Positions 15,568 to 25,859 of a DNA stretch of 64,000 bases are shown in pieces; the stretch's first letter is position 1; each line of letters begins with the position of its first letter. This DNA is from Pontibacillus chungwhensis (GTDB lineage Bacteria; Bacillota; Bacilli; Bacillales; BH030062). Made by a program: the position numbers and the translations under genes. Under the pieces are notes generated by a model. That model saw only the letters and a list, made by a program, of their open reading frames with translations. It was not told the DNA's origin and did not search any database. Location of the stretch: positions 496,001 to 560,000 of the forward strand of contig NZ_CP126446.1 in assembly GCF_030166655.1 (NCBI RefSeq), written 5' to 3'.

Positions 15568-15620
15568 GCGTGCCAGACACCATTTAGTGCTTTAGTGTGC
15601 TGCTGTGTGTCTGACACCGT
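15568..15620. repeat. GTGTCTGACAC hairpin repeat, copy A
   Basis: GTGCCAGACACC at the left end and GTGTCTGACACC at the right end, about 30 nt apart. Related copies occur at 18435-18487 and 22858-22913, all just beside gene ends or terminators. Confidence 0.7.
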
Positions 15621-15628
15621 TTAACCCT

Positions 15629-16816
15629 TTACTGTGTTGAAGGGACTCTCGAGTGTTGCTTGGAGAGTGGTTTTTCTTTTTTGAGCGAGATTGGAATCAG
15701 AATCAGGATGAGCATTGTTGTGATAATGTGGAAGAAAGATGCTTCTGGGAACAGGTCTATAAAGATCCCACCTGTGTAAGGTCCGATAATGCTCCCAATA
15801 CTAAAGGCAATCCCGCACATAATGTTCCCAGCAGGCAATAAGCTCCTCGGTAAGATATCAGTCATGTAGGAGATCCCTAAAGAGAAGATAGATCCTACAA
15901 AGATACCTGAAAGTGTAAATAAAACAAATAGCCAGCCCACCGAATCTTCAAAGATGGATGCCAGGAAGAAACAAACGACTCCCGCAAGAATAACGCCGAC
16001 AAGCACGTTCTTTCGGCCGACTTTATCACTAAGCACGCCAAGTGGCAGTTGAGAAAGGATGCTCCCCACGGCAAACATTGGAATAATGAGGGATAAGATG
16101 TCTACGTCATGTCCGATCCGCATGCCATACACAGGGAAGTTTCCATGCAAAGTCGCTTCTAGGAAACCGTAACCAAACGGGGGCAAAAAGGCTACCCACG
16201 CCAGTTTCCCGGCCTTAAAGAACCGTGAGAAGGAGCTAGAAGAAGAGGTATAGCCCCCATCATCTTCTGGAAACTGATTTCGAACAAATAGCATAAGGGA
16301 CCAGACGAGTACGCTAAGTCCTGCTGATAGTAAGAACGGTAAAGCGATATGAATGTCGACAAGTCGTGTCATAAGCGGCCCGATTGCGAATCCTACCCCG
16401 AAGAACAACCCGTATAATGCAATATTCCGGCCCCGTCTTTCTTCAGGAGAGGTTGTGGTGATCCAGGTTTGCGTACCGAAGTGGAGCATATGGTCTCCTA
16501 TTCCGATCGTTACACGCAAGATAAACCAAAACCAAAGAGATTCCCAAAAAGGGAAGAAGGCCATCGATACAAAAACGAGCCCACCTCCGATTAAGATCAT
16601 CGGCTTAAATCCGATTCGCTGTAGCGGTTTCTCCATGAAAGGTGATGCTAGTAAAACACCGATATATAAACCAGTGGCGTGAAGGCCGTTAATGGAAGAA
16701 GATACGCCGTTTTGTTCTAAAATGACGGCGATTAACGGTAAAAGCATCCCCTGGGTAAAGCCTGATATAGAAACCAAAAGAATGAGTACTGTAAAACGAA
16801 AACGTGTTGAATGCAT
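15629..16816 (-). CDS. Major facilitator superfamily transporter
   Basis: 395 residues, 12 membrane helices. The loop 2-3 region (KPLQRIGFKPMILIGG) and its second-half counterpart (GVLSDKVGRKNVLVG) are MFS hallmarks. Substrate unknown; a drug or sugar efflux role is possible. Start ATG 16816 (MHSTRFRF) is chosen because GGAGG lies 8 nt upstream; the longer version from 16831 would start inside that site. Its place between yfkH-like and yfkD-like genes suggests it may match B. subtilis yfkF, also an MFS gene, but this is from synteny only. Confidence 0.8.
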   Translation of the reverse strand: MHSTRFRFTVLILLVSISGFTQGMLLPLIAVILEQNGVSSSINGLHATGLYIGVLLASPFMEKPLQRIGFKPMILIGGGLVFVSMAFFPFWESLWFWFILRVTIGIGDHMLHFGTQTWITTTSPEERRGRNIALYGLFFGVGFAIGPLMTRLVDIHIALPFLLSAGLSVLVWSLMLFVRNQFPEDDGGYTSSSSSFSRFFKAGKLAWVAFLPPFGYGFLEATLHGNFPVYGMRIGHDVDILSLIIPMFAVGSILSQLPLGVLSDKVGRKNVLVGVILAGVVCFFLASIFEDSVGWLFVLFTLSGIFVGSIFSLGISYMTDILPRSLLPAGNIMCGIAFSIGSIIGPYTGGIFIDLFPEASFFHIITTMLILILIPISLKKEKPLSKQHSRVPSTQ

Positions 16817-17026
16817 GATGTCATCCTCCAAAAAGTGTTCATCTGTTTATGCTACTAACGGTTATTGGAAATAGCAAGAAAAAACCAATCATTCTCTTGT
16901 TTCACATAAATGGCTGTAGCACAGTTATGAAGGGTAAATGTAAGCAAAATACGTTATCAATCCCTTAAGATCGGTTACACTATAAGTATCAACGAATTTA
17001 ACTGTATGGATAAGGAGTGAAGCTTA

Positions 17027-17425
17027 ATGACACAACTACAATTTCATTTGAAAAACGAAGGTATTCGTACCTCAACAGAATTCGGTCAATTAGATATTTC
17101 ACCAGATGAAGAAAAAGGGTTTCGCCCATTCCAGTTAATGGTGTCTTCCATTGCGAGCTGCAGTCTTTCTGTATATCGTAAGATTCTGGATAAGCAGCGA
17201 GTTGGATATGAGGATATTCAGGTAACGGCTGATGTGACACGTAACGAAGCAGAAGCGAATCGTATTGAGAAGATTCACTTGCACTTCGTCGTGAAAGGCT
17301 CTCACCTAGATGAAGCAAAGCTTTCAAAGAATCTGGAGCTATCCAGCAAGAATTGTTCAATGGTTCAGTCCGTAAAAGGTAGCATTGAGATTGAGGAAAC
17401 GGTTGAAGCGATTGAATTAAATTAA
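17027..17425 (+). CDS. OsmC/Ohr-family protein
   Basis: 132 residues. Two conserved cysteines lie in the OsmC positions: SIASCSLSVY (about residue 46) and SSKNCSMVQSV (about 109), with FRPFQLMVSS ahead of the first. OsmC-type proteins reduce organic hydroperoxides through this cysteine pair; this one is closest in pattern to the short OsmC-like group rather than to OhrA. TAAGGAGTG precedes ATG 17027 by the right distance. Own terminator downstream. Confidence 0.82.
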   Translation: MTQLQFHLKNEGIRTSTEFGQLDISPDEEKGFRPFQLMVSSIASCSLSVYRKILDKQRVGYEDIQVTADVTRNEAEANRIEKIHLHFVVKGSHLDEAKLSKNLELSSKNCSMVQSVKGSIEIEETVEAIELN

Positions 17426-17436
17426 GTTGAATTTTT

Positions 17437-17477
17437 AAAGAGCTTTACTGCCAAAGAGCAGTGGAGCTCTTTTTTTA
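17437..17477 (+). terminator. Terminator after the OsmC-family gene
   Basis: AAAGAGCT and ACTGC pair with GCAGT and AGCTCTTT, with a short internal bulge, followed by a T-run. Confidence 0.85.
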
Positions 17478-17609
17478 TATCTGTTGGAAGAAATGCTCCC
17501 GTTTTTCCTACATTGAGGACTTCTTTTGTTCAATGAAAAATAGCGCAATAGATGCATACAAACCCTGATCGACGATCAAACTAAGCAAAAATCGAAAGGA
17601 AAGTGACCG

Positions 17610-18419
17610 ATGAAAATAGATATGAAACAATTCCTTGCTCTTATTGTCGCTATTGTTTTACTTGTTCCGGGGTTTGCAAATGCTGCTGAGAAGAAGGCGC
17701 CAGAAGGAAACCAAGAGGAAAGAGGGAAAATCCCAAGTCATGTGTTAAATATCTCTAAAGAGAATACCTACCCAAATTCAACACAAGACCAAATGACGTT
17801 AGAGCCAAGTGAGCTAACAAGAGAACTGATTGAAGGGTCAGAAGTAAAAATTGAAAACCCTCAATTGATTAAGATGTTAAATGAAACGAACCTACGCCCC
17901 TCTCCTGTTGCGATTGGGTATCGTGGGATGATTTATATGGGACATTGGCCCCTTCAATATGAGTCGCAAGAAACAAGCATCAACTGGCAGTATCAAAAGA
18001 TTAACCAAAATCAATTAAACAATCTAGGTGGAAAAGAAACGCAAAAGCTTAATTACAATCAAGAAGCTGAAAAGCACATTAAAGGTGGGTTAACAGCTAA
18101 GATTGATAAGACTGAAGATATCAAGAAGATGATGCTTCTTGAAGCACAAGATAACACTGACTTACCCCTTTCTTTCCATACCGTATTTGGTAAAGGAACA
18201 AAGAAAGACAATTCATACGGCATCCCGCCTAAGAAGATCGGGACACTAAGTGCATTTGCACCAGCCGTAAATGAAAAAGGTAAAGTTACGTTCGGTGAAG
18301 TTTACATTGAGCTTAAAGGTTCAAAGAAATACCTGGTCGTTAAAAACGTAACCAAACAAGGAATCGGAGCCTGGATCCCAATCCAAGACCACATCTCCTT
18401 CAACTTTAGCATCCAATAA
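17610..18419 (+). CDS. yfkD: YfkD-family exported protein
   Basis: 269 residues. A signal peptide (LALIVAIVLLVPGFANA, cut after about residue 25) leads into a hydrophilic domain with SPVAIGYRGMIYMGHWPL (about residues 97-114), the conserved core of the YfkD-like family of Bacillaceae. Function unknown; exported. AAAGGAAAGTGA precedes ATG 17610. The convergent neighbour is a YfkC-type MscS channel, as in B. subtilis where yfkD and yfkC adjoin, which supports the naming. Confidence 0.8.
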   Translation: MKIDMKQFLALIVAIVLLVPGFANAAEKKAPEGNQEERGKIPSHVLNISKENTYPNSTQDQMTLEPSELTRELIEGSEVKIENPQLIKMLNETNLRPSPVAIGYRGMIYMGHWPLQYESQETSINWQYQKINQNQLNNLGGKETQKLNYNQEAEKHIKGGLTAKIDKTEDIKKMMLLEAQDNTDLPLSFHTVFGKGTKKDNSYGIPPKKIGTLSAFAPAVNEKGKVTFGEVYIELKGSKKYLVVKNVTKQGIGAWIPIQDHISFNFSIQ

Positions 18420-18434
18420 CTTTAGCATGATAAA

Positions 18435-18487
18435 GCGTGCCAGACACCAAGCGTTGCTTCACAGTGATAAAGGGTGTCTGACACGCG
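18435..18487. repeat. GTGTCTGACAC hairpin repeat, copy B
   Basis: GTGCCAGACACC at the left, GGGTGTCTGACACGC at the right, with CTTCACAGTGATAAA in between that resembles copy C. Lies between yfkD and its terminator. Confidence 0.75.
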
Positions 18488-18508
18488 GTAGTTCTTTGCA
18501 GCATTAAA

Positions 18509-18541
18509 GAATGCCTGCCCCATGTTTTGGGCAGGCATTTT
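18509..18541. terminator. Bidirectional terminator between yfkD and yfkC
   Basis: ATGCCTGCCC / GGGCAGGCAT stem with 8-nt loop, flanked by A/T-rich ends on both sides; overlaps the stop codon of the minus-strand gene. Confidence 0.85.
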
Positions 18542-19424
18542 ATTGGTTTTGTTCAGTGGATGGTGGTGAGGGGATGTCGATGTGTTGGAGTGACATTTGA
18601 ATACCAGCATCAAATAGGCGCTCTGCAATCATCCTTCTGGCCTCTTTCGCTGCGGTCCAGTAGACAAGGTCTTCTGTTAATCCGACAATGGTATACTCGT
18701 ACCCTCTGTGGTCTTTATTTAGAGAAGTCATTCCGTACACTTGGAAAGGTTGAATTGGTTTATCGGTTAAATCTTTCTTGAGGTATTGTCCAAGTTCCTC
18801 ATTAAGCTGTTCGCACGTTTCTTCTAAGAGGGAGAAGACGCGCTTAGGGTCTTCTGTGAAGCTGACTGTAATGGCTTCAATGACACGCATATGGTCTATA
18901 TTATAGTTTTGAATAGAAGATACTTGTCCATTACTGATTGTCAGTAGTTTCCCGCTCCACTGCCTGATTTTTAAGAAACGTAGTCCAATGTCTTCAACCG
19001 TTCCAATAAATTTGTCGTTAATCGAGACAAAATCACCTTTGTGTAACTGCTTCTCATAGATGAAGAAGATACCAGAAAGTATATCCCGTATAAGACTCTG
19101 GGCACCGAAACCGAGAATAATACCAATCACACCAGCCCCTGCCAGCATACTGCCAACAGGTACGCCGTATACCGAGAGAACATAAATAATAATTCCAATG
19201 GTAGCTGTATAGGAAACGATAGAATTGATCATCGATTCAAGCGTCTTTTCTTTTCGTTCTTCTATGAAAGATGTCCGGTCAAAGAAGGATCTAATTGACC
19301 GTCTTATGAATCGAACGCCGATGAAAACGAGCAGAACGGCTACAATTACTTGAACAATTTTATAATCAAATATTTGAATGAATGTGTCATACCAGCCTTG
19401 TGCATTGCTTACCCAATCGTTCAT
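18540..19424 (-). CDS. yfkC: Small-conductance mechanosensitive channel, MscS family (YfkC-like)
   Basis: 294 residues. Three membrane helices in the first about 130 residues; the pore helix region reads AGAGVIGIILGFGAQSLIRD, as in MscS TM3, followed by the beta domain KGDFVSINDKFIGTVEDIGL. It should open under hypo-osmotic shock and release solutes. ATG 19424 (MNDWVSN) is 7 nt after GGAGGTTT; the TTG two codons upstream is unlikely. Convergent with yfkD. Confidence 0.88.
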   Translation of the reverse strand: MNDWVSNAQGWYDTFIQIFDYKIVQVIVAVLLVFIGVRFIRRSIRSFFDRTSFIEERKEKTLESMINSIVSYTATIGIIIYVLSVYGVPVGSMLAGAGVIGIILGFGAQSLIRDILSGIFFIYEKQLHKGDFVSINDKFIGTVEDIGLRFLKIRQWSGKLLTISNGQVSSIQNYNIDHMRVIEAITVSFTEDPKRVFSLLEETCEQLNEELGQYLKKDLTDKPIQPFQVYGMTSLNKDHRGYEYTIVGLTEDLVYWTAAKEARRMIAERLFDAGIQMSLQHIDIPSPPSTEQNQ

Positions 19425-19569
19425 AACCAAACCTCCGTCATGCCTTATAATGGCTCTATTATAGCATGGACTGAAGAGAGGCTCTATAAACGCTCGGCGC
19501 CATTAGACAAAATACGACTTTTCTAATAGGATAGAGCTACATGAATTCAACCGAAAAAGGAGCGCACCC

Positions 19570-19716
19570 ATGAGTAACGAAGCTAGAATTGACGAACTGA
19601 AATTACGTCTGAATACATTCATGACAAAGATTGACGAGTTAGACCCTGAGCATACATCTGTTGAAGATGTGGATCGTTTAATTAAAATGCTAGAAGAATT
19701 AGAAGATCGTATGTAG
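19570..19716 (+). CDS. SE1561-family small protein
   Basis: 48 residues, acidic and helical: RIDELKLRLNTFMTKIDELD then EDVDRLIKMLEELEDRM. Heptad spacing of Leu/Ile suggests a short coiled coil. This is the pattern of the uncharacterised SE1561 family of Bacillales. AAAAAGGAG lies at the right distance before ATG 19570, and a terminator follows the stop. Confidence 0.75.
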   Translation: MSNEARIDELKLRLNTFMTKIDELDPEHTSVEDVDRLIKMLEELEDRM

Positions 19717-19721
19717 GGAAG

Positions 19722-19747
19722 AGGCACCTTTTAAGGTGTCTTTTTTT
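19722..19747 (+). terminator. Terminator after the SE1561-family gene
   Basis: AGGCACCTT / AAGGTGTC hairpin (one wobble) and seven T residues. Confidence 0.8.
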
Positions 19748-20065
19748 ATAGTCATATAAGGAATTACGTGCGTGGGTATAATCGACCATGTGAGTAAAGG
19801 GAGAAGTTTTAGGGTACTGATGTAGGAGGGTTTGTAGATTTTCTTGATTTTTCTATAAATTCTTGATTTTTAAACATTTAGAATGGTAAAAATTCCATTT
19901 TTATATTAAGATGATAACTAAGATAGTTAAAGAGAATCATTGACAATGTAGAAATGTGAAAAAGGACACCGTATAAATGAACCTCATAAAGCAACTAGAA
20001 TTCCGGCATCTTGTTTGAAGACTATCAGATGTGAATTCAATCTTCTATATAAGGGGATTAAGCAT
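19748..20065 (+). other. AT-rich upstream region of the AimR-like gene
   Basis: No gene of its own is evident. Two TTCTTGATTTTT direct repeats lie at 19841-19852 and 19860-19871. A 13-codon frame (ATG 19977, with AAAAAGGA 10 nt upstream; MNLIKQLEFRHLV) ends at TGA 20016-20018, just where the receptor frame becomes open. It could be a leader peptide or the displaced original N-terminus of the receptor. ACTATCAGAT at 20021-20030 recurs at 21327-21336 downstream of the peptide gene. I found no convincing sigma-A promoter. Confidence 0.4.
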
Positions 20066-21154
20066 ATGCGAAATGAAGAAACCGGTCCAGTCTGTTCTTC
20101 TGAGCAATTAGAATCGGTCCGGCAGCTAGTGGGTCCTGATGAACCCGCGCTGTTTACCGTGTTGCAGCAGTTAACTAAGGAATACGATGAGATCACGACT
20201 ATACAGTTAACGAAAGAATTTTGTTTTCATTGCCAAACTGACGAAAATAAGCGAGTCGGTTTGGAGTATTTGTATATGAATGGATTGCTAGACGAAGTAC
20301 AAGAACTAGTTAAAATAAATGAAGAATCAGCAAATCAAATTAATCGGGAGTGGGCTTATCTCTATCAATTCTTCTTGGATAGAAAATTGAGGAATGCTGA
20401 GATTGATGACTTTGAGGCATTCTTCTCTAGATTTCAGACTTCAGACCCAGAGTTAGAATGCTTGATAATTTTCACTAAGATTTACGTGCACTGTGACAAG
20501 TTCGATTTTAAAGTTATAGATAATTATAGAGGGATTTTAACTAAACAGTTATTGAAAATAAATAATACTTTGTTAAGAATATACTTTCAGTTAAGGGAAA
20601 ATGAAATGTTGTTCGTTCACCATTTTAAACGAAATGACATAGAGGCAGCTAGAAACTATGGGCGAAATTTAATAGAAAACTCTTTAATAAATTATGCAAA
20701 AAAATGTTATGTTACTGCTAATTTAGCGGAAACTTATGTATTTGATGATTTTGAAAAAGCGAAAGTATACATCAAAGAGGCTAAAGACATAGCCATTAAG
20801 TACGATTTATCCTACTTTCTAGGGGTAATTAATAATAGAATTGTGCCTTTTATGCATGCGGTAAACAATGATTGTGACGGTATAGAAACTAATGATATAC
20901 CTGAAGCGGCGCATTTAGAAGCGGTAAAAGGTAACGCTGAAGAGGCGGTTCGTTTATTGAATTCTCTAGAGGAACTAACTCCTTATCAAGAGTATTATTT
21001 AGGTTTAGCTACAGGGGATGAAAAAGTATTATATAACTCTTATCAAAGGCTGCTGAAGGAAAAGAAAGATTTTTTCTTCTCGAAGCTGCCGTTAAGGGAA
21101 TTGCAAAAAAGGGGGTGGAATAGCATTGAAGAAGAGAACGCTAATGCTCATTAG
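20066..21154 (+). CDS. AimR-like (arbitrium-type) peptide-pheromone receptor
   Basis: 362 residues from ATG 20066, which has AAGGGG 9 nt upstream. All-helical with TPR-like repeats. Segments characteristic of AimR lysis-lysogeny receptors are visible: ETYVFDDFEKAKVYIKEAKD (about residues 223-242), then YQEYYLGLATGDEKVLYNSY (about 310-329) and FFFSKLPLRELQKRGW near the end. AimR proteins are RRNPP-type DNA-binding regulators that bind a hexapeptide. The N-terminus before residue 30 is short for an AimR DNA-binding domain; the frame is open back to TTG 20015 and a 13-codon frame in another phase precedes it, so the start or a frameshift needs checking. A pro-peptide gene overlaps its 3' end. 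No phage genes are nearby. Codon use is more AT-rich than its neighbours, suggesting transfer. Confidence 0.82.
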   Translation: MRNEETGPVCSSEQLESVRQLVGPDEPALFTVLQQLTKEYDEITTIQLTKEFCFHCQTDENKRVGLEYLYMNGLLDEVQELVKINEESANQINREWAYLYQFFLDRKLRNAEIDDFEAFFSRFQTSDPELECLIIFTKIYVHCDKFDFKVIDNYRGILTKQLLKINNTLLRIYFQLRENEMLFVHHFKRNDIEAARNYGRNLIENSLINYAKKCYVTANLAETYVFDDFEKAKVYIKEAKDIAIKYDLSYFLGVINNRIVPFMHAVNNDCDGIETNDIPEAAHLEAVKGNAEEAVRLLNSLEELTPYQEYYLGLATGDEKVLYNSYQRLLKEKKDFFFSKLPLRELQKRGWNSIEEENANAH

Positions 21155-21275
21155 TGCGGTTGCAATAGCAATTACACTTCAAGTAGGACATGCGGATTAC
21201 AAACAAAATAATAGTGTAGAGACTGCACCCCAAATTATTCAATTTAGTGATCCAGATATAAAAGGTATGGGTTAA
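21126..21275 (+). CDS. AimP-like secreted pro-peptide (candidate pheromone precursor)
   Basis: 49 residues, overlapping the receptor gene by 29 bases in another frame. TTG start at 21126 sits 7 nt after AAGGGGGTGG, a near-perfect ribosome binding site inside the receptor gene. The N-terminus is a Sec signal (MKKRTLMLISAVAIAITLQ), then a polar linker (DYKQNNSVETAPQIIQFSD) and the C-terminus PDIKGMG. AimP precursors are of this size and layout and release their last six residues, which here would be DIKGMG. Known mature AimP peptides mostly end in GA or GG, so the fit of the final residues is partial. A terminator follows. Confidence 0.75.
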   Translation: MKKRTLMLISAVAIAITLQVGHADYKQNNSVETAPQIIQFSDPDIKGMG

Positions 21276-21288
21276 TTATTATTCAGCT

Positions 21289-21318
21289 AAGGAAGCATCC
21301 CAATGCTTCCTTTTTTTT
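21289..21318 (+). terminator. Terminator after the receptor-peptide pair
   Basis: AAGGAAGCAT / ATGCTTCCTT stem, 4-nt loop and eight T residues, 13 nt after the peptide stop codon. Confidence 0.9.
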
Positions 21319-21469
21319 ATTCAAAAACTATCAGATATTCCCACCTCCCTTTTTTTAATCAAGAGGGTTGATTTTTTTGCGTTAGTCCTTTACCATATTA
21401 AATTGTTAACGAACTAATACGATGACGTAAAATATATAAATTCTTGAGGTTTTAGGAGGTTCATAAATC

Positions 21470-22789
21470 ATGCTTGCTTGGTCAGTGGTTGTTTCGGTTC
21501 TAGTTATGACTGTATTAAGTCTGCTCAGAGTGAACGTCATTATTGCTATACTTGCTGCCGGACTTACAGCAGGTCTAATGACAGGAGCTAGCTTAACTGA
21601 AACATTGGATTTAATTATTAAAGGTATGGGAGGACAAGCGGAAGTCGCCTTGAGCTATATTTTGTTAGGAGCTTTTGCCGTCACAATTGCCTACTCAGGT
21701 ATTACAGGAATTCTTGTTCAGAACTTATTAAAGGTGATGAAAGGGAAGCGATCCATTCTGCTACTTGTTATTGCAGGTGTCGCATCTTTATCTCAAAACC
21801 TTGTGCCGATCCACATTGCTTTTATTCCAATTCTCATTCCGCCTTTATTAAAGCTCTTTAACGAAATGAAAATCGACCGACGTGGTGTAGCAACAGCATT
21901 AACGTTTGGTTTAAAAGCACCATATTTAATGATTCCTGCTGGATTCGGTCTGATTTTCCACAAAACCATTCAGGACTCCATGAAGGAAAATGGGGCAGCC
22001 GTCTCTGTTCCAGAAATTGCTCAAGCTATGCTTGTTCCTGGATTAGGGATGATTGTTGGTTTACTCATTGCGGTATTCATAACGTACCGTAAGCCGCGTG
22101 ACCCGAAGGAAGTTATTCATGTTGATTCTGAAACAGCGGAGGTCGCAGCTACTGAAGAAAAGGCTGAACCATTTGGCTTCAACCACGCTTTAACTATCCT
22201 GGCGATTCTCTTTGCTTTAGGCATCCAGTGGTATACAGGAAGCATGGTGTTAGGAGCGCTTGTTGGCCTTGTTTCAATGTTTGTCTTCCGTGTTGTTCCT
22301 TTCAAACGAGGCGATCAAGTTGTCTCTGAAGGAATCGGAATGATGGGGACGATCGCGTTTGTGATGTTAATTGCGTCTGGATTCGCGAATGTCATTCAGA
22401 AGACAGGAGCTGTGAATGCCCTTGTTGAGCAAACATCTGGGCAACTAGGGGATAACAAAATGGTTATCGCCTTCCTTCTTCTCGTTGTAGGACTTGTTAT
22501 TACAATGGGAATTGGTTCTTCCTTTGGTACTATTCCGATCTTAGCCGCTCTTTATGTACCGATTTGTATGGCAGTTGGGTTCTCTCCACTTGCTACAGCC
22601 GCGCTAATTGGTACAGCCGGAGCGCTCGGGGATGCAGGTTCTCCTGCTTCTGACAGTACACTTGGCCCGACATCAGGCTTAAATGCCGATGGGCGTCACA
22701 ACCACATTTGGGACACATGCGTACCAACATTCATACACTACAACATTCCATTGTTTGTGTTCGGTTGGGTCGCAGCGATTATCTTATAA
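21470..22789 (+). CDS. Na+/H+-antiporter-family membrane transporter (YuiF-like)
   Basis: 439 residues, about 11-12 membrane helices. The N-terminus (SLLRVNVIIAILAAGLTAGL) and the discontinuous helix regions SFGTIPILAALYVPICMAV and GAGDAGSPASD-like ALGDAGSPASDSTLGPTSG match the antiporter-family/NhaC-like group with B. subtilis YuiF. Members exchange cations or carry amino acids; the substrate cannot be told here. TTTAGGAGGT precedes ATG 21470. Own terminator downstream. Confidence 0.75.
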   Translation: MLAWSVVVSVLVMTVLSLLRVNVIIAILAAGLTAGLMTGASLTETLDLIIKGMGGQAEVALSYILLGAFAVTIAYSGITGILVQNLLKVMKGKRSILLLVIAGVASLSQNLVPIHIAFIPILIPPLLKLFNEMKIDRRGVATALTFGLKAPYLMIPAGFGLIFHKTIQDSMKENGAAVSVPEIAQAMLVPGLGMIVGLLIAVFITYRKPRDPKEVIHVDSETAEVAATEEKAEPFGFNHALTILAILFALGIQWYTGSMVLGALVGLVSMFVFRVVPFKRGDQVVSEGIGMMGTIAFVMLIASGFANVIQKTGAVNALVEQTSGQLGDNKMVIAFLLLVVGLVITMGIGSSFGTIPILAALYVPICMAVGFSPLATAALIGTAGALGDAGSPASDSTLGPTSGLNADGRHNHIWDTCVPTFIHYNIPLFVFGWVAAIIL

Positions 22790-22808
22790 ATCAATACATG
22801 TTCCATTA

Positions 22809-22840
22809 GCCTGCCCCGCTACACCGGGGCAGGCTTTTTT
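22809..22840 (+). terminator. Terminator after the YuiF-like gene
   Basis: GCCTGCCCCG / CGGGGCAGGC stem with short loop and TTTTTT. Confidence 0.9.
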
Positions 22841-22857
22841 ATGCTTTAAAGAAGTAC

Positions 22858-22913
22858 AGGGTGTCAGACACCCTGAAGATCTTTACAGCGCTAAAGGGTG
22901 TCTGACACGCTTT
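22858..22913. repeat. GTGTCTGACAC hairpin repeat, copy C
   Basis: GTGTCAGACACCC on the left pairs with GGGTGTCTGACAC on the right; each arm is itself nearly palindromic. The middle (CTTTACAGCGCTAAA) resembles copy B. Confidence 0.8.
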
Positions 22914-22976
22914 AGTTCTGTGATGTATATTTCGTGGGTGGTGATGGAGACTAATGTAAAAAGGTGGTGTGTGCTT

Positions 22977-23771
22977 GTGAGGATTTGTTTACTCATTAGT
23001 ATGGTAGTGATGAGTTTGTTGTATGCTCCGGATGTGAGTGCTCACGGTAGTTATGGGTGGGGATTCAGTAGAGGCGGTGAGGGAGAGGCGCCTGATGTTG
23101 GGAAATATGGTCCTTTGCTTGAGAAGTACGGTGGGTATTACATGGATAAGACCGATGAGAAAGTGGTGTATTTAACGTTTGATAATGGATACGAGCAAGG
23201 ATACACGGATGAGATTTTAGATGTGCTGAAGGACAAAGAAGTACCGGCCACGTTTTTTGTGACAGGGCATTACGTAAACAGTGCTTCGGACCTTGTGAAG
23301 CGAATGGTGAAGGAAGGCCATATAGTCGGCAACCATTCCTGGAGTCATCCTGATTTCTCCAAAACGTCTCCCGAGAAGATTAAGAAGGAATTAAAACGGG
23401 TCGAAGATGCTGTGGCTAAGATAACAGATCAAGACTCGATGCAATACCTACGTCCGCCTAGAGGGACGTTTAGTGAGAATAGTCTTGCTGCTACTCAAGA
23501 ATTAGGCTATATTACGATGTTCTGGTCACTTGCCTTCGTTGATTGGCATACAGATGGACAAAAAGGGTGGGAGTACGCATACCGAAGTGTGATGCAACAA
23601 GTCCACCCAGGGGCCATTATCTTATTGCACACCGTTTCAGAAGATAACGCGCTGGCTCTTGAACATATGATCGATGAGCTTCATAAGAGAGGCTATACAT
23701 TTAAAAGCTTGGATGATCTCGTGTTAAAACAGATGTTACCTGATCCGTTGCAGACGCTATCAGGACTATAA
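22977..23771 (+). CDS. pdaA: Polysaccharide deacetylase, muramic-delta-lactam type (PdaA-like)
   Basis: 264 residues, about the length of B. subtilis PdaA. Signal peptide (ICLLISMVVMSLLYAPDVSA), then an NodB-type fold: motif 1 LTFDNGYEQGYT (catalytic Asp and the PdaA-type non-canonical second position), motif 2 NHSWSHPDF (His metal ligands), motif 3 LRPPRGTF and a late LLHTVSEDNA. PdaA makes the delta-lactam of spore cortex peptidoglycan, needed for germination, which implies a spore former. Start is GTG 22977 (or 22971), after AAAAAGGTGG; the open frame extends far upstream but into the previous gene. In B. subtilis pdaA (yfjS) also lies near the yfk genes. Confidence 0.87.
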   Translation: MRICLLISMVVMSLLYAPDVSAHGSYGWGFSRGGEGEAPDVGKYGPLLEKYGGYYMDKTDEKVVYLTFDNGYEQGYTDEILDVLKDKEVPATFFVTGHYVNSASDLVKRMVKEGHIVGNHSWSHPDFSKTSPEKIKKELKRVEDAVAKITDQDSMQYLRPPRGTFSENSLAATQELGYITMFWSLAFVDWHTDGQKGWEYAYRSVMQQVHPGAIILLHTVSEDNALALEHMIDELHKRGYTFKSLDDLVLKQMLPDPLQTLSGL

Positions 23772-23772
23772 A

Positions 23773-23805
23773 AAATAGCGAGCCTTTACTAAAGGCTCGC
23801 TATTT
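23773..23805. terminator. Terminator between pdaA and methyltransferase gene
   Basis: AAATAGCGAGCCTTT / AAAGGCTCGCTATTT perfect 15-bp stem with 3-nt loop; symmetrical A/T flanks allow action on both strands, and it reaches the end of the convergent gene. Confidence 0.9.
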
Positions 23806-24423
23806 CTTTAAGGTAATACAAGAATAGCTCGTTTCTACTTCCATAAAATTAGTCTCGTGTACACGTTGATCATTTTGAAAAAACGTTTTTTCACGTTCGG
23901 AGGAAGATGGGAGGGGCTGAACTTGCCACTGATCTTTGATCTGCCATTTTGTTTCTTGCCATTCTTTGCTCCATACCTCTGGGAAATGGGGGAGAATTTT
24001 GGTTTGACGCTCGGCCGAATGCATGGCTTCCTGTGCGATGAAAAGGAGACCCTTGTCATTTAGGACACGACTGACTTCGCTTAATACTTTAGGGCGGTCA
24101 AATAAGTGCCATACCCCAAATGCCACCACGATATCGAAACTGTCCTTTTCAAATGGGAGGTGCTCTGCATCTCCTTTGCGATAAATAATCTTTTCATTTT
24201 GGCTTTTGGCCACTTTAAGTTTCTCCTCAGAACGATCAAGCCCTGTAACATGCACTTGATGTTGGGAGAGAGCGTTTGTGAACGAGCCGCTTCCGCATCC
24301 TAGAACTAAGACGTTCTTGTTAACGAAACAGGTGCCATTTCTTTCACACGTTTGAATAAAATGATGATATCCTTTGGGGGAATCTGGATAAGAATGAACC
24401 GCCCCCATTTGCTCGGAGCTCAT
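23800..24423 (-). CDS. Class I SAM-dependent methyltransferase
   Basis: 207 residues. Motif I VLVLGCGSGSFTNAL (about residues 38-52), acidic end of strand 2 (GLDRS), motif DAEHLPFEKDSFDIVVAFGV and HLFDRPKVLSEVSRVLNDKG are standard for the Methyltransf_11 type. Small-molecule target unknown. TAGGAGT lies before ATG 24423. It follows the VOC-family gene by 11 nt on the same strand, so the two form an operon. Confidence 0.82.
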   Translation of the reverse strand: MSSEQMGAVHSYPDSPKGYHHFIQTCERNGTCFVNKNVLVLGCGSGSFTNALSQHQVHVTGLDRSEEKLKVAKSQNEKIIYRKGDAEHLPFEKDSFDIVVAFGVWHLFDRPKVLSEVSRVLNDKGLLFIAQEAMHSAERQTKILPHFPEVWSKEWQETKWQIKDQWQVQPLPSSSEREKTFFQNDQRVHETNFMEVETSYSCITLKK

Positions 24424-24434
24424 GAAATCAACTC

Positions 24435-24836
24435 CTATTCATTTGCGTGGTTCGTGGAACTCATGGATAGCCAGTGCTCATCAGGATCTTGGAAGTAAAA
24501 AGCTTTCCCGCGATCGGCTTCTTCAATATTGGTTACCGAGAGGCTCACATCGTGGAAGAAGTGATGGCAGGCATGAATATCCGTTGTATAAAAATCTATG
24601 ACAGGATTGTGCTCAATATTCTCGTTTGAGTTAGAAAAATATAAAGGTGAAACCTGATCTGTTTCCGTTAATTTAATGGTTGCTGTTCCCTTTTCGCCGA
24701 AAGAAAGGTAACAAACATGGTCTTTCTTCTCTACTGTGTGTAGCCCGAGTATTTCAGTATAAAACTCTTGTGACTTGTCCAAGTCTGAAACTGGGATTTC
24801 AATGGTTGCAATTTTAACGATTAATTTGTCATCCAT
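24435..24836 (-). CDS. VOC-family (glyoxalase/bleomycin-resistance fold) protein
   Basis: 133 residues. Two beta-alpha-beta-beta-beta halves: IATIEIPVSDLDKSQEFYTE at the start and VIDFYTTDIHACHHFFHD in the middle, with FYFQDPDEHWLSM at the end where the last Glu metal ligand is expected. These are metal-dependent lyases, dioxygenases or binding proteins; the substrate is not evident. Start ATG 24836 has AGAGGTG upstream; the GTG at 24845 is within that site. First gene of a two-gene unit with a methyltransferase. Confidence 0.8.
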   Translation of the reverse strand: MDDKLIVKIATIEIPVSDLDKSQEFYTEILGLHTVEKKDHVCYLSFGEKGTATIKLTETDQVSPLYFSNSNENIEHNPVIDFYTTDIHACHHFFHDVSLSVTNIEEADRGKAFYFQDPDEHWLSMSSTNHANE

Positions 24837-24989
24837 TATGTTCACCTCTTCGCATTGTTTACGTTCTGTTGCTTTTTCTTTTCCTTTTTTAAGGGAAGGG
24901 TAAACAAGAAAACCTTATTGATTTACAATAGGAAGGTTTTTAGGTAGCGTAATAAGAAATCAGATCGTCGAAGAAGGGAGAGGGTTCAG

Positions 24990-25859
24990 GTGTGGGAGGA
25001 AACCGTTCGGTTATCAACCCCTTATGATTTTGACTATACGCTGATTCGCTTTAGTCTTGATCCATTAAGTCATTTAAGCAAAGAAGAAAGATGGGTTCTT
25101 ATTCCTGTACAACTAGGGGATGAACAACACGTTGTGCATGTGGAAGCTAGAGGAACAAGAGAAGAGCCTGAGTTTGTCATTAGGGGCGACTCCGAGGATA
25201 GAAAAAAAGAGTTGCTTCACCGGATCCATGATTTATTTCAGTGGGATATTGACCTTGGGGTGATTCAAGAGCACTTTATGCATACGAATCTTGCTCAATT
25301 ATTTACTGATCACCCTCATACGCCGATTGTCAAAGACTATCATCCTTATGACTGCCTGATGAAAACGATTATTCATCAGCAACTCAATATGAAGTTTGCC
25401 TATACATTGAGTACTCGGTTTGTGAAGACTTATGGGAATGAAATTGATGGAGTATGGTTCTATCCAACCCCTGAACGTGTAGCAGATATTCCGTATGAAG
25501 AACTTAGGGAGCTACAGTTCAGTCAACGAAAAGCGGAATATGTAATCGATACCTCGAGGAAGATTGTTAATGGAGAGCTAGACCTAAATGAGCTCACTGG
25601 GCTTGGGAATGAAGAGGTCATGAAGAAGCTCACGAAGATCCGCGGGATTGGCCCCTGGACAGTTGAGAATTGGCTATTATTTGGTGCAGGACGAGCAGAC
25701 TTTTTACCAAAAGCTGATATCGGGATTCAAAATGCACTGAAGCGATACTTTGAGTTAGAGTCAAAGCCAAAGCATGACCAAATAGATGCCATGAGTCCAG
25801 AGTGGACCCCATACAAAAGTTATGCCTCACTTACTCTATGGAGAAGTATAGAAGGATAG
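24990..25859 (+). CDS. yfjP: DNA-3-methyladenine glycosylase, AlkA type (YfjP-like)
   Basis: 289 residues. The helix-hairpin-helix KLTKIRGIGPWTVENWLLFG (about residues 212-231) and the following ADFLPKADIGIQ, which carries the catalytic Asp of the HhH-GPD fold, are intact; the N-terminal about 100 residues form the AlkA-like beta domain. It removes alkylated purines from DNA to start base excision repair. GTG start at 24990 follows GGGAGAGGG by 5 nt. B. subtilis yfjP lies near pdaA too, so synteny agrees. Confidence 0.85.
   Translation: MWEETVRLSTPYDFDYTLIRFSLDPLSHLSKEERWVLIPVQLGDEQHVVHVEARGTREEPEFVIRGDSEDRKKELLHRIHDLFQWDIDLGVIQEHFMHTNLAQLFTDHPHTPIVKDYHPYDCLMKTIIHQQLNMKFAYTLSTRFVKTYGNEIDGVWFYPTPERVADIPYEELRELQFSQRKAEYVIDTSRKIVNGELDLNELTGLGNEEVMKKLTKIRGIGPWTVENWLLFGAGRADFLPKADIGIQNALKRYFELESKPKHDQIDAMSPEWTPYKSYASLTLWRSIEG

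Follow-up and report, generated by a model that had tools for sequence, protein, structure and literature searches.

The window analysed here, a stretch of 64,000 nucleotides from Pontibacillus chungwhensis, carries a gene pair that is probably a peptide-signalling system of the host, with a receptor from the AimR branch of the RRNPPA proteins that would act by altering a protein-protein contact. Profile matches and the predicted fold place the receptor in the AimR family. It is under purifying selection and, to judge from alignment and structure models, is without the N-terminal helix-turn-helix (HTH) of AimR. It is followed by an overlapping gene for a secreted pro-peptide, and sequence comparison appears to place the pair in a clade of HTH-less AimR proteins that is chromosomal and widespread. 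A preliminary description of this DNA had proposed the receptor and pro-peptide pair, and had overlooked both the missing HTH and the large chromosomal clade. The features of the locus are given below in window coordinates.

19851–19969, + strand: upstream block with many columns invariant in six aligned orthologs, probable control region
20050–20057, + strand: ribosome binding site (RBS) of the receptor gene, TAAGGGGA, ahead of the ATG start
20066–21154, + strand: AimR-family receptor gene, 362 aa, predicted nine-TPR-type fold without N-terminal HTH (profiles, model)
20096–20179, + strand: receptor residues 11–38, where an HTH and the first part of TPR1 would lie (ortholog conservation)
21108–21118, + strand: RBS of the pro-peptide gene, AAAGGGGGTGG
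21126–21275, + strand: pro-peptide gene, 49 codons, TTG start, Sec-type signal, DP...G tail
21249–21272, + strand: predicted mature signal DPDIKGMG, last eight codons (homology of DP tails)
21289–21312, + strand: terminator-like hairpin after the pair, 10 pairs, 4-base loop and T run

Assignment of the receptor to the AimR family

The 362-residue protein matched the Pfam AimR profile PF22871 with an E value of 1.6e-62 (211.9 bits, cut-off 26.7) and the NCBIfam profile NF038310 (lysogeny_AimR) with 177 bits (cut-off 70), and PHROG 1728 was also matched. RapH_N gave no match to the receptor at E values up to 10, and a Rap or NprR identity was rejected on this ground; the single RapH_N match in the same genome lay below the cut-off and belonged to a separate, NprR-like protein of 430 aa with HTH_3 and TPRs. 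A phmmer search with the single receptor protein found no relative in the PDB, whereas a family profile built from 37 relatives recovered SPbeta AimR (6hp3) with an E value of 1.8e-25. When the AF2 model of the receptor (pLDDT 91.5, pTM 0.86) was used as a Foldseek query, 16 AimR chains ranked first (TM 0.69–0.78 by query) and Rap came after them with an E value of 4.6e-3. The preliminary description had called the protein AimR-like and had named a better match to Rap or PlcR as the result that would speak against it; no such match was obtained, and AimR surpassed Rap by both profile and fold. The idea that an HTH-less AimR replaces Rap was also dropped, since RapH_N exceeded its cut-off in only 12 of 61 genomes (six of them, on our reading, in Rap-sized frames) and the absence of Rap beside AimR therefore means little.

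A 379-aa version of the receptor that begins at a TTG, present in the list of open reading frames, was not adopted as the gene because TATATAAGGGGA and the receptor ATG were identical in all six aligned orthologs (six aligned of eight). No convincing match to a promoter type was found upstream of the receptor in the window or in the six aligned orthologs. In four ortholog pairs the dN/dS of the receptor was 0.11–0.23, with dS values of 0.8–3.2 that are near saturation.

Absence of the helix-turn-helix

The family profile aligned with SPbeta AimR only from AimR residue 43 onward, and AimR residues 1–42, recognition helix included, had no counterpart in the receptor. The AimR DNA-binding domain is given as residues 1–48 (PMC6536502) or, if its last helix is counted in TPR1, as residues 1–59 (PMC6458997), and the residues that contact bases are N30, N32 and Y35. 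The model of the window receptor contained one short helix (residues 12–19) ahead of the first TPR helix (residues 29–39), and the model of L064, a relative from the spoIIQ locus, contained no HTH (pLDDT 92.0, residues 1–13 under 50). These two clade members were modelled and the others were judged by alignment and length. PMC10075063 warns that the AimR HTH can escape public models. We relied on the profile alignment together with the models because start-codon choice inflates some N-terminal lengths, and on both the recognition helix with N30, N32 and Y35 appears to be without a counterpart in this receptor.

Residues 11–38 were the most conserved 28-residue stretch in the eight orthologs, where 16 of 28 positions are invariant (63 of 312 over residues 39–350), and this segment, part of TPR1 included, is a candidate partner-binding element. 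Two SPbeta peptide contacts, E300 and D360 (PMC6458997), have counterparts that are kept, E280 in 37/37 relatives and a nearly invariant D335. The SPbeta anchors N202, N206, T236, N239 and R228 were not conserved in the profile alignment, which counts against our preferred reading.

The pro-peptide gene and its predicted signal

The pro-peptide gene overlaps the 3' end of the receptor gene by 29 bases. A small Sec-like open reading frame was found at the receptor 3' end in 8/8 orthologs, and the P. salipaludis and P. chungwhensis relatives have an ATG at the position of the TTG. A strict rule (Sec-like, RBS-like and [DN]P near the C-terminus) was passed by seven of the eight orthologs and by none of 629 controls, which were the other mechanical open reading frames in these loci with a length of 250 aa or more, antisense frames included. 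Looser rules were passed by more of these controls (Sec-like alone, 147/629; Sec-like with RBS, 9/629), so that the Sec-like rule alone is weak evidence. The one ortholog that failed, by elimination, was that of G008, in which the first ATG is without an RBS and the peptide ends in DPTVGGVG. For the strict-rule counts L017, L020, L135 and L136 were removed as duplicates (114 to 110 rows) and three more rows were without a flank. A chance small frame was ruled out by the comparison with control frames, and sequence conservation indicates that the overlapping 49-codon Sec pro-peptide gene is real. The earlier proposal of such a gene, translated from a TTG with a good RBS and followed by a terminator of its own, was thus upheld, and the loss of the small gene in relatives that it had named as contrary evidence was not seen, the gene being present in all eight genomes with an orthologous receptor.

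The eight ortholog tails read SDPDIKGMG (window), SDPYIDGMG, YDPHVVGIG, YDPTVGGVG, QDPTVGGVG, YDPNITVVG, YNPYISVVG and YDPDINPGIG, with DP kept in seven and NP in that of G001. In relatives DP units are repeated within the pro-peptide: L061 has five DPVMGDLD units, L087 two DPGLGDMD units and L014 two DPGDPGMG units. Since DP is conserved in the tails and DP units are repeated, an eight-residue product that starts at DP is the likely signal, and the mature peptide is likely to be nearer DPDIKGMG than the DIKGMG first suggested, which probably lacks the first two residues. The genome of the window has no further copy of the pro-peptide. Constraint on the pro-peptide was weak (pooled pN/pS 0.79 against 0.43 for the receptor), and we count this against the preferred reading.

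A conserved host locus

Orthologs were searched in 61 genomes (the genome of the window and 60 others). An orthologous receptor was present in 7/8 genomes of the genus, its own included, and in one genome of another genus of the same family (G008), at 46–68% identity outside its own genome; the closest named relatives were from Pontibacillus salipaludis (68%), P. chungwhensis (53%), P. yanchengensis (46%) and P. marinus (46%). SE1561 and yuiF flank the pair in 8/8 orthologs from the two genera, and the eight receptors of this locus form one tree group (support 99/98). The eighth genome of the genus, G004, had no AimR match and an empty site, with SE1561 and yuiF 134 bp apart.

None of the 10 flanking window proteins scanned (15632–25856) matched a PHROG of phage structure or integration, four of the 10 matched PHROGs of unknown function or class 'other', and no aimX-type or integrase gene was found beside the pair. 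The statement that there is no phage around the pair was therefore borne out. The best phage match to the receptor had 26% identity (E 1e-5), and identity to arbitrium AimR was about 23–28%. Phage records with a match at E values up to 1 numbered 23, 21 of them from Bacillus phages, and six plasmid matches had 24–27% identity. Viral contigs scanned with clade-specific patterns contained no relative, a result that speaks only about the clade because ordinary phage AimRs are not recovered by these patterns. The pair is a normal part of the chromosome in a salt-loving host, at a conserved host locus.

The window also contains pairs of the palindrome GTGTCWGACAC at 15570–15617, 18437–18484 and 22861–22908, each with 37 bases from start to start; with up to one mismatch there were six matches against 0.45 expected in shuffles. 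Similar palindrome repeats occur around the other two AimR loci of the same genome.

The chromosomal clade

A scan of contigs from named genomes, limited by the patterns used, yielded 36 loci. Among these spoIIID adjoined 31, with spoIIQ on the other side in 30 and the remaining one (L063) cut by a contig end; the other loci were four Pontibacillus pairs at yuiF and one elsewhere (Amphibacillus, L084). The SpoIIQ and SpoIIID copies of the window's own genome scored 328.8 and 150.5 bits with NCBIfam models, both over cut-off. Genera with a receptor between spoIIQ and spoIIID include Virgibacillus and Oceanobacillus of the Bacillaceae, and further Lentibacillus, Sediminibacillus, Aquibacillus, Paucisalibacillus, Ornithinibacillus, Natronobacillus and Terrihalobacillus. 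In each of the eight genomes that carry the pair at yuiF, a further receptor copy adjoins spoIIID; in G000, G005, G006 and G008 this copy was without a pro-peptide under the strict rule. At the spoIIQ-spoIIID locus of G003 (L049) and G002 (L050), the pro-peptide encoded at the receptor 3' end contains several units that resemble DPVEPPIK or DPVEPPLP.

The strict rule was passed at 22 of the 42 spoIIQ/spoIIID-locus receptors scanned (31/42 for the Sec-like rule) and at 9/38 receptors at other places. The 20/42 at spoIIQ/spoIIID without a strict-rule pro-peptide count against our reading; the rule also misses some pro-peptides that are seen in relatives. Receptors occur as well at a third locus, beside speB, in numbers from one to four; with one further genome (G066) counted in, none of the 19 had a strict-rule pro-peptide, which likewise counts against the reading. 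L039, L040, L041 and L042 are tandem arrays beside speB of three or four HTH-less AimR-like genes with no recognisable pro-peptide gene, and are possible eavesdroppers on other loci. Beside the speB-locus receptor of the window's own genome (L002:553-1248) there is a repetitive stretch with near-identical amino acid repeats in open frames on both strands.

In a midpoint-rooted tree with long branches, from which L017 and L020 were left out, 86 rows (45 spoIIQ/spoIIID, 19 speB, 8 yuiF and 14 other) clustered together (98/96), separate from the phage AimRs. One HTH-size receptor (G041), on a very long branch, joined the base of the clade under this rooting. An AimR match over cut-off was present in 79/397 genomes of the order, HTH-size and HTH-less receptors taken together. 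Three short AimR-like receptors of 341–347 aa (L138:4980-6002, L139 and L143:4921-5961) fall in the phage-like part of the tree and likewise appear to be without an HTH, and the pro-peptide beside L138 repeats SPRIQSEP; this group is a possible second, independent HTH loss. The notion that HTH-bearing AimRs are always in phages was dropped on the HTH-size receptor L144 of G044. The neighbours of L144 we take to be ordinary genes.

Discussion

By analogy with AimP and Phr practice, from which export, trimming, import and peptide binding are all inferred, the small gene would yield a pro-peptide that is exported by Sec and cut down to its last eight or so residues (DPDIKGMG). This peptide would then be re-imported, presumably by an oligopeptide permease, and would bind in the groove that the receptor TPRs form. 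Since the receptor is without an HTH, action on a partner protein is more probable than a grip on DNA, and the bound peptide would most likely shift the contact of the receptor with that partner, as in Rap/Phr. The partner could be a stationary-phase or sporulation regulator, a suggestion made because spoIIQ and spoIIID flank most of the chromosomal relatives that were found. A role in sporulation timing rests on gene location and is speculative; the window locus itself is not beside spoIIQ and spoIIID, which counts against the link, and G004 keeps SpoIIID without any AimR, so that the system is not needed for having spoIIID.

The pair shares with arbitrium AimR/AimP of SPbeta phages the AimR profile and fold, the order of receptor and Sec pro-peptide gene, a C-terminal signal and some peptide-contact positions (the E300 and D360 counterparts), and differs from it in the lack of an HTH and in its host locus. 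Its tail is a DP octapeptide, whereas AimP ends in a C-terminal hexapeptide that mostly closes with RGA; the view that the peptide end is unusual among AimP was correct. With Rap/Phr it shares an HTH-less TPR receptor, an overlapping or adjacent pro-peptide gene, a chromosomal place and an expected action on proteins; it is unlike Rap in lacking RapH_N, in its weaker fold match and in having a short N-terminal segment in place of the Rap three-helix bundle. The candidate RRNPP subfamily 21, described in PMC12700828 as chromosomal Alkalihalobacilli systems that branch within AimR in the sequence tree, is alike by that description and may belong to the same clade. According to PMC9765709, 87% of AimR matches lie in mobile elements, 11% of the AimRs found outside prophages and plasmids have a pro-peptide candidate, and Rap is the sole RRNPPA family without an HTH; the HTH-less AimR clade contradicts the last statement. 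The chromosomal AimR eavesdroppers of the same paper, as there described, bear an HTH, unlike the window receptor, which is HTH-less and has its own pro-peptide. No description of an HTH-less AimR, or of an AimR between spoIIQ and spoIIID, was found in searches of the open-access literature.

The preliminary description had left a choice between a phage relic and a take-over by the host. That the pair is a decaying AimR-AimP left by a lost SPbeta-type prophage would fit the fact that such pairs are best known from SPbeta-group phages, and the empty site in G004, but is very improbable given the same flanks in all eight orthologs, the low dN/dS of the receptor, the absence of phage structural or integration genes among the flanking proteins, the distance of the best phage match, the lack of a relative in viral contigs under clade-specific patterns and the absence of the HTH also in relatives at a quite different locus. 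The relic was accordingly given up and the host system retained, although not as a recent take-over of an intact switch, which is at odds with a widespread clade without the AimR HTH. A host system could also serve against phages, the HTH-less receptor dimerising with incoming AimR or soaking up phage peptides and so disturbing the lysis-lysogeny switch. The family profile does match the C-terminal part with the AimR dimer contacts (PMC6458997), and chromosomal AimRs are proposed as eavesdroppers in PMC9765709; we nevertheless regard a decoy as improbable, since the pair encodes a peptide of its own that differs from the RGA-type peptides of phages, and no resident HTH partner was found, the three AimR matches of the same genome all being HTH-less in length.

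A receptor that still directs genes, either by a divergent contact with DNA or by way of a partner protein with an HTH, is quite improbable: AimR TPR residues also touch the DNA backbone (PMC6536502, PMC6458997), and the conserved N-terminal helix 12–19 could form part of a contact, but the recognition helix has no evident counterpart and the start of the protein in relatives is disordered and unconserved. We give the least credence, and very little of it, to the small gene being a by-product without a signal, with the receptor binding another ligand. The variable pro-peptide and the several AimR peptide anchors that are not conserved would agree with this; the small gene is, however, kept in one layout in all eight orthologs, DP-tail pro-peptides accompany about half of the spoIIQ/spoIIID-locus relatives and none of the controls, and DP units are repeated within pro-peptides.

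Beyond the preferred reading of a host signalling pair, we tentatively put forward a wider scheme, which we hold to be possible and somewhat short of an even chance. A large AimR host branch would have been kept vertically and have lost its HTH independently of Rap, would serve, from its place between spoIIQ and spoIIID, as a population-density input to sporulation in halophilic Bacillaceae, and would share with phage arbitrium descent from one dormancy-control receptor. The Pontibacillus pair would then be a channel that arose by duplication, took on a new target and acquired an octapeptide of its own.

If a family best known for phage lysis-lysogeny control includes a second HTH-less branch, host cells may have put the arbitrium scaffold to use in protein-mediated signalling of their own. 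The clade offers a reason for AimRs outside phages and names their likely signals, the DP octapeptides. Across many genera it lies between spoIIQ and spoIIID, which suggests a possible input to sporulation, and whether arbitrium is of host or phage origin becomes a testable question.
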